Positions 15,101-62,406 of a DNA stretch of 64,000 nucleotides are shown here, piece by piece. The notes under the pieces are model-generated. The model was not told the origin of the DNA and searched no databases. It worked only from the letters and a program-made list of their open reading frames with translations. The number at the start of each line of letters is the position of its first letter. Within the stretch, counting starts at the first letter, position 1. The stretch comes from Scenedesmus sp. ARA3 (taxonomy: Eukaryota > Chlorophyta > Chlorophyceae > Sphaeropleales > Scenedesmaceae): the NCBI GenBank assembly GCA_004335835.1, contig RWJK01001800.1, forward strand, positions 45,003 to 109,002. Reading direction: 5' to 3'. A program made the translations under genes and the position numbers.

Positions 15101-16668
15101 GACTTGCCTGACGTTTGCCATATGTTGCAAAACAGAGCGAATTTGGTATGACAAGATTCTGTTTGCATGACTTGCACTGTGCACATCACGACTGACAGGT
15201 CAAACAACATGTCATGGCGTTCATCGAAATTTACGTAAGCCTCTTTCTTGTGCTGCATGGCTGCAGGTGCTGGACTTGAGCAATGCGCAGCTCACCGGCA
15301 GCATCCCTGCTGCATGGTTTGACAGCGCAGCACGCAAAGCAGAAGCCCGAGCCCTGCTGCTTGACGCTCAAGCAAGCATGAAAGCCCGACAGTCCATCAT
15401 GACGGCAGCTGCGGCTTCGACATTGACGTTGACACATGCGGAGGCCACTCTACCAGCGCTGTCGCCAACAGTTGTGCATGCGCTAGAGCAGGCGGCAACA
15501 GCAGCCAGCAGCGGGCCAGGCATGACAACGGGCCTCACGCAGGTGCAGGAGCTGCGGCTTGCAGGGAATAAGTTGAACGGCAGCATCAGCGGTATCGAGA
15601 TGCTAGGCAGCTTGCGGGTGCTGGAGCTGTCAGGCAACAGCCTCGGTGGGCGGTTGCCGCAACAGCTGATGATGCTGAGCAAGCTGCAGGTAGGCCGTGG
15701 TGGTTCACATTGCTTTTTGAGTAAGCAAAAATATGTAGGGCTGCTAGTGACGCAGCAGTGAGCGCTTGGCGGGCACTCTAGCAGCGACTCCGTCGCACAA
15801 AGTCATGATGTTTTGCAGCGATGCTGATACGTGGCGGGATTGCAACAGCTGGTGGGCTGCATTATCGTGCTCTTGAAGCATGTCAGCTGAATTGGTTGTT
15901 GTTGGCAGTCACATGTGCAATGCATTGTCCAGCTGTCCTTACCTTGAAAAAGCACAAGCAGATTTGCTTGACAAGGTACCTTGAACTCACACCAGCCTTG
16001 CTGTTTGAAGTGTGAAAGGATACCTTAAATGGTTGAAAGCAACAGCCAGTTGTAAGCCATTGCAACTACAGCAGCAGCATGACGATTGGGACGCCTGCTT
16101 ATTTCAAAGCATACTTGCAACACACAGCACCTTCAAGAATGCGATAACGTGCTTCTCACTCATGCTGCCACGTGTGACTTGAGCAGGAGTTGCGCCTGCG
16201 CGCCACAGCCCTGAGCGGCTCGCTGCCTGACAGCTTTGCGCGGCTGTCACAGCTGCAAGCCTTGGACCTGGCCGGCAACAACATATCAGGTGGGAGCTCG
16301 AGGTGGCACGACTTTGTTGACTGTGCCTGACGCTTGCTGTTCAAGCTGGGTGACTTACAGTGTTGGTGATTTGGTTGGGCACTGCTGCTGGTGCACACTG
16401 CTCAGAATACTTGGCGCTGGACCTGGCCGGCAACAACATCACAGGTGGGTGCTCTCCCTGCCACACCTCTGACCAATTCAGCGGAGCTTGTGCAGGTCGC
16501 TCAGTGCGACCAACGGTGTGAAGTCACCAAGTTGGTTAAGCAGTACTGTCGTTGCTCACTGCTCAGCATTCTTGCCTGCCACACTGTTACTAGCAAGGCT
16601 GCTTCTGCCACTGCCGCTGCTCATGCTCTTGTCACATTTCCTGCAGTCAATTCTCATGCTGTCTGGTG

Positions 16669-16749
<81 letters not shown>

Positions 16750-17021
16750 CAGGCACTCTGCCAGAGATCTGGGTGGGCCTCACGCAGCTGCGCAGCATGG
16801 ACCTATCATCCAACATGCTGTCGGGTGTGCTGCCGCTGCTGTGGGGCCGCCTGGGGGCCCCCACCCACAGCCTTCAGCTGCTGCTGCTGGGTGACAACCC
16901 CTGCATGGATCCTGCTGCTCTGGCCAGCAGCATCCAGCAGTCTGGCATCCTGAGCAGCGGACGCGTCAGGGTGGAGGTGTCCAGCGCAGCTAACAGGGAC
17001 TGCATGGTGGGGCCGCCTTGA
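9141..17021 (+). CDS. Large leucine-rich-repeat protein, two LRR arrays
   Basis: Probable extracellular LRR protein of about 1,310 residues. Exons: 9141-9809 (start Met uncertain; an acceptor at 9190 suggests an upstream exon is possible), 10088-10937, 11585-11661, 11892-11954, 12515-13539, 14186-14343, 14691-14981, 15267-15689, 16187-16289 and 16753-17021. The first 220 residues are Cys-rich and not recognised. LRR array A (exons 2-5) has plant-type repeats such as LETLDLSQNALTG and LLKLDISNNKLEGQVP. Exon 5 then runs into a second LRRNT-like cap (ELLALKALKGVID, then SW, then WCRKWARVTC), which opens array B (exons 6-10, e.g. LRHLDLSSNPGLAGSLP). This shared exon joins both arrays in one gene. 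No transmembrane segment or kinase domain is visible. All junctions are in phase except 11954/12515, which is one base out. It may be two genes that fused, or a duplicated one. Confidence 0.7.
16411..16444 (+). repeat. Decoy copy of an LRR exon end plus donor
   Basis: A second copy of the end of the exon 16187-16289 (peptide LDLAGNNITG, then gtgggt) lies in the following intron. Its donor is 155 bp downstream of the true donor. It lacks the rest of the exon. Confidence 0.8.
16671..16747 (+). repeat. CTG microsatellite abutting a 3' splice site
   Basis: An almost pure (CTG)n tract of about 77 bp, with one CCG interruption, runs up to the acceptor tttcag of the last LRR exon at 16753. It occupies the place of the polypyrimidine tract. 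Confidence 0.9.
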
Positions 17022-59544: not shown

Positions 59545-59999
59545 CAGGTCATTCCTGGCAACGAGACCAAGGTGTCGGAGATGCTCAACAGCCTGGCGCT
59601 GCAGGGCGCGCGCGTGGTGGCAGGGCGCGCTGATGACCTGCACGTCAGCGGGCACGCCTACCAGGTAAGCCCACACGTTAATCATATCAGCGGCTGATTG
59701 CCGCCTTGCTGTGTGTGGCGCAATTGTTGCTGACAACCTGCAGGGCAGCGGGCACACCTTCCAGGTGCGCCGGGTCATGCAGAGGCCGGTGCAAGGCTGT
59801 CTCTGACCAGTTGCCTGTGTTGCATGTGTTGATGCACGCACCAAGCTGACTGCAACCTGCACAGAGCAGTGTGTGTCGTTCCTGTTGTCTTTGTCGCTCT
59901 TTCCGCGCAGGGCGAGCTGGAGGAGGTGCTGCGCTTTGTGAGGCCACACACAACATATTTCATTCCGTCTGCCACCTGCTCATGCCCCATGCACACATA

Positions 60000-60062
<63 letters not shown>

Positions 60063-62406
60063 GGCGAGCTGGAGGAGGTGCTGTGCTTTGTGAAGCCCCA
60101 GACAACACTTGTCAATCTGCGTATCACATGTGTGTGCCTTGTGTCCCTGTGTCGCTGCTGCTGCTGCAGGGTCAACTGGATGAGGTGCTGTGCTTTGTGA
60201 AGCCGGCGAAAGCACATGCCTTTCCTTGTGTCACTCTGCCCTGTGTGCAACTCAAATGCTTGGCCCGTCTTCTGTTCCTGCTGCTGCAGGGTGAGCTGGA
60301 GGAGGTGCTGCGCTTTGTGAAGCCGCAGCACTTCCTGCCTGTGCACGGCGAGTACAGCTTCCTAGTGGAGCACGCACGCCTGGCTAGGGAAAGGGCGGGA
60401 GTGCTGTTCACAGAGGTGCGGCGGTTTAGGTTAGAGGGTTTAGCATTCAGGGTTTGGGTTGGTGCAACAGTGCTTTTGTTGTCGTGCGAGTACAGCTTCC
60501 TGGTGGAGCACGCCTGGAGAAGGAGAGGGCGGGGATGCTGTTTGCAGAGGTGCGGCGGTTTAGGGCAGCGGGTTCAGGTCTTGGTGTGAAGTGCTATGTT
60601 GCACGGCGAGTACAGCTTCCTGGTGGAGCGCACACACCTGGCCAGGGAGAGGGCCGGGGTGCTGTTCACAAAGGTGCGGCAGGGGTGCAGCCAGCTTGTC
60701 CTGACACTGCTCAGCAAAGATGTGTCAGTACTTTTGGCACAAGATGCAGTACTGTGGTCAGCCGCTGCAGCAGCGCTGTATGGCAAGACGATGTCGCGCT
60801 GCTTCACAGTGCGCCAGGCCGGACACATGACCATGTGGGCTGCTGTGCTATGCCACCGTAGCAGCTAACCAGCAGCTATTCAAAAAGCTGGATGTGTTGT
60901 GTTGTACTGCCTTCCCCGTGTGCAGGTCATCAAGAACGGCCAGATGCTGGGTGTGCACGAGCGCCGCAACCGCAACACCATCTCCACCGGCAGCATGGCA
61001 GCAGCAACAATCAAGGCAGAGGCGGCTGCAGCAGCAGCAGCAGCAGCAGAGGCAGAGCAGGGCACTGCTCAGGATGAGCCGCGCAGTGGCATCTCTGTGA
61101 TAGGCGAGGTGGACCTGCTGAGGCTGTTCAATGACGGTGGCAAGTGAGTGGTCCAAATCTGTATTGTGCTTGCTGTTGACATGCATTGCTGTAGCTCAGG
61201 CTTTGGTGTTGCAGTACTGTGATAGGCGAGGTGGACCTGCTGCGGCTGTTCAACGATGGTAGCAAGTTAGTGACACAGTGTAGTGCACAGCAGTTTGCTT
61301 AAATATACGAGTTGGAATAGGAGCATTGCTGCACGTGTAGCTCTTTATGCTGCTCCCATATTGTTGCAGCTGGTTGCAGCAGCGGCACCGGCACTGCCAC
61401 TGAGGTGGCCATTGCAGAGCATGAAGCGCCTGACCGCTCTGTAGCATTCCAATTGACATGCTCATCTCTTGACACGCGGGGGCACCGGCACCGAAAACAC
61501 CAAACATTGCTGATGAGCTGATGTGCAACGTGAGCTAAACAAGCATGTCCCGCGCTGCCAATTGGTGTCATAACTCAGGGGCACCGGCACTGCCACAGAG
61601 ATGGCCCTTGCGGAGCGCGAGACCCTGGCCTTTGAGGGTGTCATCGTTGTAGCAGTTGACGTCATCCGGCCCAAAGCGGCCATGAGCAGCGGCGGCTGGG
61701 CCGGTGCTGCAGGCGGTACTGCTGCTGCTGCTGCTGGCGGGCTGTCCTGCAAGGCTCGGCTGACTACACGTGCCATGTGGACTGACCAGGGCAAGCTGCT
61801 GGACACGCTGCACCAGGTGGGGTTCGAACCAGGGACCTTTGGATGTGTCTGTGGATGTTGTGTCCGGTGTTGATCTGTGGTGCTGCCGCGGTTCAGCGGG
61901 TGAGGCAGCGGTAGTGTGCTTGCTGCTGTGGAGGCAGCCGTTCTAGTTGTCGTGCTTGTGACTACGCATGCGGCTCGTAACTGCTGCTGCTGCTTGCCCA
62001 CCCCTCTTCCGCTGCTGCTGCACACACACTAACTAAGCTGCTGCTGCTGCTGCTGCTGCTGCCATATGCAGGCTGTCAATTCAGCAGTCAGCAAGCTGCC
62101 AGGCGATGCGTCGCTAGGCCTAGTAGAGCGCAACGTGACGGATGCATGCATGCGGGCCTCCCGCTGGTTCAACAACCGCAAGCCTGAGGTTATTGTGGTG
62201 GCGTATGAGCATGACCCGCGCTCAGCAGTGATGGTGGATGCAGCATCACGCAGGCGCGAGCAGCAGCAGCCGCAGCAGAGACCTGGCAGGCGGGACGGCG
62301 CAGCAACTGGGATGCCGTGGCAGCAGCAGCAGCAGCAGCAGCAGTATCCGCGGCAGCAGCAGTATCCGCGGCAGCAGCAGCCAGCGCAGCAGGGGCCGCC
62401 CGCAAT

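Follow-up and report, generated by a model that had tools for sequence, protein, structure and literature searches.

Does the intronic DNA of a green alga contain copies of the exon edges that flank it, and, if so, by what process and from what source did these copies arise? This question is raised by a 64,000-nucleotide stretch of Scenedesmus sp. ARA3 DNA (the window), for which an initial annotation had described short segments spanning splice junctions as being repeated within the neighbouring introns of at least six unrelated genes.

Occurrence of exon-edge copies

The exons of the window genes were fixed by spliced alignment to Tetradesmus obliquus proteins, with 98-99% amino-acid identity (879 of 897 aligned residues for P0121, 1305 of 1318 for P0241 and 532 of 538 for P0001), which identifies the source as T. 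obliquus or close kin. In the exon map provided by P0121 and P0241, 22 of 49 introns contain a copied edge of one of their own flanking exons with a Smith-Waterman score of at least 60 (12 donor-side and 12 acceptor-side), with a few of the surveyed introns being doubtful on account of their position at gene-model fusions or beside exons of 8-24 bp. When the same edges were compared with other introns, trimmed to at most equal length, this score was attained at a rate of 0.0004 for donor and 0 for acceptor edges across 4,704 comparisons. Self-BLAST of the window recovered 65 or 67 pairs of direct repeats separated by less than 700 bp versus 4 inverted ones, all of which are self-palindromes, and each of 10 dinucleotide-preserving shuffles of the window yielded 0 near repeat pairs. 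The presence of junction-spanning exon-edge copies in introns is thus confirmed, and all six genes originally named, namely the LRR, RBR ligase, dihydropyrimidinase, HEAT protein, CoaE and RNase J genes, are affected. To describe the copies as occurring throughout the window is an overstatement: the region at 22.6-30.7 kb is devoid of BLAST repeat pairs, and only two exon-derived copies, one of which lacks the junction, are present in the LRR gene. Rfam matches and tRNA genes are absent from the window, a viral contig collection yielded no match to it, and among prokaryote contigs only three bacterial loci match, all to the CoaE part.

Merging of the repeat pairs leaves 36 clusters for the window and 104 for the 265 kb of genome sampled, a density of about 1 per 2.5 kb, and comparable clusters occur in 19 of 22 further genomic stretches. 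By our own gene finder, some of these clusters contain no coding sequence and three are repeats within exons (17 of 98 and 3 of 98, respectively, in a slightly different selection). The smallest offset per cluster lies at 60-200 bp in 86 of the 104 clusters, with a peak at 100-140 bp, and at 220-280 bp in 16, with one further cluster at 40-60 bp and one at 649 bp; it is below 280 bp in 103 of the 104. This distribution, together with the spread over other stretches, supports a preferred unit length and a wide presence in the genome. Of the two spacing classes proposed earlier, that near 180 bp reflects mainly a single array in the RNase J gene (179 bp), the actual second mode being at 220-270 bp. 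The rule that acceptor-side copies lie upstream and donor-side copies downstream of the intact exon is true but tautological, because no other position is available to an exon-edge copy within its own intron.

Distribution of copies across the affected genes

The most elaborate instance is the RNase J intron at 56270-57660 (+ strand, as are all copies in this gene), which contains a donor-side array of four copies with a 179-bp period (56370..57027) derived from an exon end coding for KIDEDPVDGEAFDRTTFDLL. The four copies taken together differ from the true exon by 26 synonymous and 1 non-synonymous changes. The same intron has two acceptor-side copies (GKEPISLMMSDSTNVLS) at 57418..57607, with the true exon starting at 57661; the T. 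obliquus model P0122 reads through two copies of this type. A second array, on the acceptor side, with four copies and a period of about 115 bp, occupies 53877..54286 of the intron at 53371-54346. Two donor-side copies each are seen at 57954..58139 (intron 57804-58353) and 60486..60680 (intron 60416-60925), acceptor-side copies at 59907..60205 (intron 59665-60289), and both types at 61217..61420 (intron 61144-61578), namely a donor-side copy at 61217-61272 and an acceptor-side copy at 61380-61420, the latter scoring 57 and thus falling under the cut-off of 60. Single copies are present on the acceptor side at 53098..53184 (intron 52727-53264) and 59434..59502 (intron 59160-59547) and on the donor side at 54534..54620 (intron 54491-54926), and a copy of an exon end without the junction is found at 55478..55518 (intron 55399-55757).

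The CoaE gene (+ strand) displays a donor-side copy at 50780..50874 (intron 50622-51435) and an acceptor-side copy with a 114-bp unit at 50217..50320 (intron 49984-50396), the score of which, 40, is under the cut-off of 60 used for counting. The HEAT gene (- strand) contains a donor-side copy at 47140..47253 (intron 46907-47417) with 11 synonymous and 0 non-synonymous differences, two acceptor-side copies at 45426..45597 (intron 45376-45844), a donor-side copy at 44942..45011 (intron 44711-45205), an acceptor-side copy with 98% identity across 49 bp at 43575..43623 (intron 43482-43907), an acceptor-side array with a period of about 119 bp together with a donor-side copy (43146-43225) in the region 42644..43225 (intron 42613-43280), and an acceptor-side copy at 41028..41125 (intron 40967-41331). 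The dihydropyrimidinase gene (- strand) shows acceptor-side copies at 34290..34345 (intron 34232-34688), 33679..33863 (two copies; intron 33595-34109) and 31888..31985 (intron 31726-32255), and donor-side copies at 31227..31329 (intron 31114-31400) and 32949..33168 (intron 32756-33362). The last of these carries QGINSFKFFMAYK, a peptide repeated in the T. obliquus model P0001, in the spliced alignment of which 33097-33165 is taken as exon. In the LRR gene (+ strand), the exons of which come from our own gene finder only, a donor-side copy lies at 16418..16454 in an intron, 155 bp after the original. Finally, the RBR/RING gene (- strand) has arrays of 115-bp units with about 7 copies at 20954..22558 (20954-21415 and 21779-22558), between which lies an assembly gap of 194 N (21430-21623).

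The position of this gap next to the RBR array, as well as the coding-like divergence between copies described below, would be in keeping with an assembly that had joined two haplotypes in tandem. Such an artefact is nevertheless very improbable: the UniProt T. obliquus proteins P0122 and P0001 have copies at the same introns, with residues partly differing from those of the window, and the arrays hold 5-7 distinct copies. The copies at these two introns, to which the outside support is limited, are therefore not the artefact of one assembly.

Tandem origin and intron lengthening

Sequences flanking the copies were homologous to those flanking the source edge on the intron side in 23 of 36 tests and on the exon side in 2 of 33, with several copies sharing one edge in these tests; the corresponding values at other loci are 6 of 23 and 0 of 23. 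This asymmetry, along with the close linkage of copy and source in direct orientation, supports tandem duplication of junction-spanning segments, as originally proposed. An earlier test with pooled flanks and a less sensitive score (31 of 156 at p<=0.05) had suggested wholly unrelated spacers, a reading rejected once the side-separated test showed many homologous intron parts. The copied unit is contiguous across the junction for part of the copies. Of the 37 testable ones, 17 align openly into the intron and 16 of these show intron homology; the remaining 20 stop no more than 16 intron bases from the junction, 7 of them with such homology and 13 with none beyond that point. The intron side has diverged too far for breakpoints to be placed exactly.

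The copies sit inside introns that interrupt the reference T. obliquus proteins, and in the 49-intron set the median intron length is 510 bp with copies versus 282 bp without. Hence, the part of the earlier interpretation that invoked tandem duplication and intron lengthening is upheld, while the seeding of new introns is not, only longer introns having been seen.

Apparent preference for splice junctions

In the protein-mapped genes, 26 of 28 clusters contain an exon edge, one of the other two being a match of copy versus copy, though introns make up 24.9 of the 31.6 kb. Taken at face value, this excess favours a copying process aimed at splice junctions, for example an RNA-templated or chromatin-linked one, in which many copies would have stopped at the splice site when first made; the 20 sharply ended copies, 13 of them without further intron homology, point the same way. 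A first simulation, which assumed neutral decay and little intron divergence, also pointed to such targeting. However, with random duplications and an intron divergence of 0.4 per site, simulation gives a ratio of intron-only to edge-containing clusters of 0.09 (observed 2:26), so that detection bias alone can generate the edge excess. At this divergence 58% of simulated copies have 16 or fewer intron bases aligned, with 10 of 26 observed, and the power of the flank test is 0.65 (0.22 at a divergence of 0.5), the overall observed value being 0.64. A mismatch with the simulation is seen in the exon parts of the copies, whose observed median of 46 bp is below the simulated one of 58-61 bp.

Thus, the junction excess may arise mostly through ascertainment: as the intron parts diverge, only the exon part remains recognisable, and an excess at junctions emerges without targeting. 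The open copies, which clearly contain intron, are explained well by detection; the sharply ended ones are explained less well, and since intron homology is confined to 7 of these 20, the splice site may be the real end of some of them. The earlier proposal of a process acting at splice sites is accordingly unneeded after the re-simulation, with the sharply ended copies leaving some room for it, and we regard targeted copying as improbable.

Coding-like divergence of the copies

Protein-coding content is preserved in the copies to a much greater degree than would be expected of dead sequence. Across 41 copies at 26 edges, pS is 0.24 and pN 0.037, with a pN/pS of 0.154 (cluster bootstrap 0.086-0.266), compared with about 0.5 expected for dead copies. 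Taking one copy per edge, 38 of 111 differences are non-synonymous, versus about 60% expected from a dead copy (P ~6e-9 with an expected fraction of 0.615 and sites assumed independent). At 9 multi-copy edges, the sites differing among copies comprise 23 non-synonymous and 33 synonymous ones, the neutral ratio of the two being near 3, and there are 0 stop codons in 670 codons. Exon-copy pairs derived from HMM-based gene models are noisier than the protein-mapped set (pN/pS 0.23-0.34), and those sampled outside the window show a weaker bias (0.32), perhaps due to frame errors.

Gaps display a different pattern. There are 15 in the copies against 56 non-synonymous and about 19 expected neutral synonymous changes (ratio 0.20), and 24 against 145 substitutions in the introns (ratio 0.17); the frequency of gaps relative to amino-acid changes is thus approximately as neutral decay predicts. 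All 13 gaps in the exon parts of copies are non-multiples of 3, with six compensating within two copies.

Two candidate explanations of the synonymous bias were rejected. Hypermutable third positions are inconsistent with a context-corrected expectation that is nearly equal across codon positions, and gene conversion between exon and copy should likewise give a pN/pS near 0.5, unlike the observed value. The predominance of synonymous differences had been missed in the initial annotation.

The simplest history is a plain tandem duplication after which the copy decays neutrally and the exon is conserved, which accounts for the direction of the copies, their place inside introns and the intron homology. 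It is unlikely, as it predicts a pN/pS of about 0.5 against the observed 0.154, and the 0.4 divergence of the intron parts would imply an N value near 0.2 against the observed 0.037. Moreover, simulations of it with a per-lineage divergence of up to 0.11 give aligned fractions near 1 and detect intron-only pairs at 0.85-0.95, unlike the data.

Alternatively, the copies could be functional, as alternative exon ends or splicing regulators under purifying selection; by extrapolation, tens of thousands of them would be maintained by selection as units competent for both coding and splicing, giving introns a stock of spare exon ends used, or guarded, in splicing. The low N/S among copies, the lack of stops, the intact splice dinucleotides in 36 of the 37 copies reaching the junction and the near-identical peptides of five RNase J units are all in keeping with this proposal. 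Against it stand the non-triplet gaps at close to the neutral ratio and the offsets, which show no frame preference (11/15/15 across the three frames) and led us to reject in-frame use of the copies. Furthermore, neither dihydropyrimidinase nor RNase J would be likely to tolerate the insertion of a repeated peptide, and the T. obliquus models P0121 and P0241 lack internal repeats of this kind. Both the general form of this explanation and its genome-wide extension are therefore viewed as distinctly unlikely.

Possible derivation of the copies from diverged alleles

The synonymous bias and the neutral-rate gaps are together best fitted by copies made from, or recombined with, diverged alleles. 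Under this scenario, segments of about 80-140 bp across an exon-intron junction would be duplicated in tandem, probably via over-extended repair synthesis or template slippage, with the units sometimes expanding into arrays. The true junction would continue to work and the extra unit or units would lengthen the intron. The intron parts would have diverged by about 0.4 or more, leaving mainly the exon edge recognisable. Copy and exon appear to have accumulated most of their differences as functional coding alleles of a genetically diverse species, the duplications having drawn on a diverged allele or undergone recombination with one afterwards. The copies may then have decayed neutrally for a short time only, in line with the gap ratio and with the 36 of 37 splice dinucleotides kept. 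The reading as a whole, including the ascertainment of edges, is tentatively given a probability of a little under one half (about 0.46).

Published T. obliquus assemblies span 208 Mb (PMC5552973), 172 Mb with 31,964 genes (PMC7590803) and, according to the figures given in a further report, 100-105 Mb carrying about 15,000 genes (PMC12571836). These differences make diverged haplotypes plausible in this species and may reflect heterozygous diploids. No second haplotype of the window genes was seen in the assembly, one of the searches having scored 40 of 408 candidates, so that the support for an allelic origin is indirect. The synonymous excess between copies within one array implies that the derivation from alleles needs repeated allelic replacement. 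The preferred length of the units is left unaccounted for by the allelic source alone.

Relation to known systems and implications

Several described phenomena share elements with the copies. The repair-mediated duplications of Pace et al. 2009 (PMC2671141) are likewise short, closely linked and direct, and include exons and splice sites; those in human, up to 619 bp, are attributed there to synthesis-dependent strand annealing. Unlike them, the copies described here occur at a cluster per ~2.5 kb, with narrow lengths, arrays and synonymous-biased divergence. Intron gain by tandem duplication (PMC3443670) similarly involves duplication across an intron-exon boundary carrying splice signals, whereas the present duplications are seen to add length to introns already in place. 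In Chlamydomonas and Volvox, tandem repeats are enriched towards the ends of introns (PMC3887541); they share the green-algal setting, the intronic location and the proximity to junctions, but the units considered in that study were of 1-50 bp, as opposed to mostly 80-180 bp with exon sequence here. Introners (PMC9860276) also change intron content genome-wide; each copy here, by contrast, derives from the exon edge of its own intron. A genome search with window positions 46700-50700, in which 40 of 408 candidates were scored and common words were skipped, gave mainly trinucleotide-type dispersed matches among those listed. Exon-edge copies in Tetradesmus introns were unreported in the titles and abstract openings searched, a corpus thin in subscription journals, and neither "intron" nor "tandem" occurs in the main text of PMC12571836 or PMC7590803.

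The clusters in the sampled 265 kb constitute a dense natural record of intron growth in a green alga; provided that this non-random sample is representative, the whole genome would contain of the order of 25,000-35,000 clusters. Should the copies be allele-derived, each such intron would contain a fossil of another version of its exon, and allelic exchange and silent-site evolution could be studied within one genome; should they be functional, they would represent a new class of splicing element. The copies mislead gene predictors, as two public T. obliquus models already hold copies as coding sequence.

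Abundance and spacing of exon-edge copies

Small-offset direct repeats form 65-67 pairs in the window, against four inverted ones, and ten shuffles of its sequence yielded none. With exons set, as in all the decisive tests, by spliced alignment to the public Tetradesmus obliquus protein models P0121 and P0241 (a third, P0001, being an additional check), 22 of 49 mapped introns carry a copy of the edge of their own neighboring exon (12 donor-side and 12 acceptor-side), against a null rate of at most 0.0004. The copies reported in the initial annotation are thus confirmed, in nearly half of these introns. 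Copy-bearing introns have a median length of 510 bp versus 282 bp for the remainder, although long introns also give copies more room, and some mapped introns are doubtful where gene models are fused. P0121 joins CoaE to RNase J (window 49945-62812), P0241 joins the HEAT protein to the dihydropyrimidinase (window 30492-49267), and our purpose-written HMM gene finder, whose training set was the window plus 22 further stretches, likewise merged genes there. Residues 1-161 of the CoaE part (window 49945-51615) show 50-61% identity to bacterial MAG sequences, mostly alphaproteobacterial as judged by title.

Over 265 kb sampled, 104 repeat clusters were recovered, occurring in the window as well as in 19 of the 22 genome stretches sampled outside it (16 of the 22 lie at contig starts). 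The smallest offset per cluster is 60-200 bp in 86 of the 104, peaking at 100-140 bp, and 220-280 bp in another 16, with one cluster shorter and one longer than both classes. A preferred spacing, as previously proposed, is therefore upheld, with the second class at 220-280 bp and not near 180 bp. A further copy in the spacer was detected (p<=0.05) in 20 of 32 tested pairs with offsets of at least 170 bp, examples close to the half-offset being 122, 138, 107, 112, 128 and 121 bp. Clusters are distributed very unevenly: their density varies from gene to gene, and a 10-kb stretch may hold anywhere from 0 to 10 of them. Copies are absent from the ~8 kb at window 22600-30700, which include a pseudouridine synthase gene.

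Presence in related protein models

The genome holding the window (87.3 Mb in 1,567 contigs) shares 98-99% of aligned residues with T. obliquus proteins in the dihydropyrimidinase, RNase J/CoaE and HEAT-repeat genes, an identity that points to T. obliquus or very near kin as its source. Another public T. obliquus model, P0122, treats as coding two extra KEPISLMMSDSTNVLS copies that belong to the RNase J intron at window 57418-57607; they are spaced 35 and 37 residues apart, their window counterparts being spaced ~102 and 108 bp. Similarly, VAEDMGKLVQQGINSFKFFMAYK occurs twice in P0001, whose spliced alignment takes window 33097-33165, part of the VAEDMGKLVQQGINSFKFFMAYK copy, as an exon. Internal repeats of this kind are absent from P0121 and P0241, which are models from 11-Mb contigs. 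Since P0122 and P0001 carry them, the copies at these two introns are, judging from the protein models, not an artefact of a single assembly.

Relationship to splice junctions

In the mapped genes 26 of 28 clusters include an exon edge, despite 24.9 kb of intron versus 6.7 kb of exon, and a first simulation, in which duplications fell at random and then decayed neutrally, failed to give this excess, so that copying initially seemed to be aimed at splice sites. However, a second simulation, with random duplications, exon divergence as observed and an intron divergence of 0.4 (inferred by matching power and simulation), gave an intron-only to edge ratio of 0.09, the observed figure being 2 to 26, and left little of the intron aligned in 58% of copies, the observed figure being 10 of 26. 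Random duplication modeled in this way would yield nearly the pattern seen, and special targeting is not required by the preference for splice sites that the initial annotation had noted.

Homology extends into the intron-side flanks of 23 of 36 copies and into the exon-side flanks of 2 of 33; other loci show the same direction more weakly (6 of 23 and 0 of 23, respectively). Many copies thus conform to the proposed tandem duplication of junction-spanning segments. Those that end sharply, within 16 bases of the junction, fit random duplication less well, as only 7 of 20 show intron homology versus 16 of 17 others; either the introns are still more diverged, or these copies reached no further than the splice site when they formed. 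The exon parts of copies, with a median of 46 bp against a simulated 58-61 bp, also fit less well. The 13 sharply ended copies lacking intron homology leave some room for targeting, a less likely reading.

Coding-like divergence and proposed origin

For a copy dead from birth, non-synonymous divergence from the true exon is expected to be about half the synonymous. Across 41 copies at 26 edges we obtained pS 0.24 and pN 0.037, a ratio of 0.154 (0.086-0.266). Taking one copy per edge, 38 of 111 differences are non-synonymous versus ~60% expected; copies sharing an array are non-independent, so that binomial P values are mere guides and a bootstrap by edge is safer. Differences among the copies themselves number 23 non-synonymous (N) and 33 synonymous (S), and no stops occur in the 670 codons of the protein-mapped copies. 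The HMM-defined sample is noisier but has the same direction, with pN/pS of 0.23-0.34 and one stop in 1,604 codons versus ~11 expected. Context-dependent mutation does not account for the synonymous excess, the context-corrected expectation being nearly equal across codon positions. Splice dinucleotides are preserved in 36 of 37 copies, and that the copies are functional is a live alternative. Gaps, for their part, are about as frequent as neutrality predicts (15 against 56 N plus ~19 expected neutral S; 24 against 145 substitutions in introns). Of the 13 within exon parts none is a multiple of three, though six compensate inside two copies.

Amino-acid changes and gaps together suggest a copy decay of only ~0.04 per site, in contrast to the synonymous difference of 0.24 and the inferred intron figure of ~0.4. 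The simplest account of this disparity is that most of the divergence accrued when copy and exon were each still a functional exon, the duplications having been made from a diverged allele or having recombined with one afterwards. Diverged haplotypes are plausible in T. obliquus given strain assemblies of 208 Mb (PMC5552973) and 172 Mb (PMC7590803) versus others of 100-105 Mb (PMC12571836). A repair event could copy the diverged homologue beyond the exon end and then, failing to re-anneal in the dissimilar intron, would leave a duplication. Such copies would resemble the repair-mediated duplications described in PMC2671141.

Other repeats in the window

The intron at window 30748-30924 (177 bp) is the sole case among the mapped copies in which the intron is shorter than the copy offset (228 bp), and sequence copied from the upstream exon ends up ~18 bp ahead of its acceptor; this intron might therefore have been created or reshaped through duplication. 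A run of 194 Ns (window 21430-21623) adjoins the arrays of 115-bp units in the RBR gene and is probably a spot where the assembler failed to resolve the array. A 55-bp minisatellite (window 57109-57427; 5.8 copies, 97% match) sits midway along the RNase J intron, with donor-side copies on one side of it and acceptor-side copies on the other. CAG/CTG-type trinucleotide runs are very frequent in introns (e.g. window 46915-46977) and match many genome sites, accounting for the majority of those listed from the 174 matches to a 4-kb query. Window 18534-19460, where the minus-strand gene cluster has its lowest coordinates, holds a 22-bp array of five copies and an array of ~164-171 bp units.
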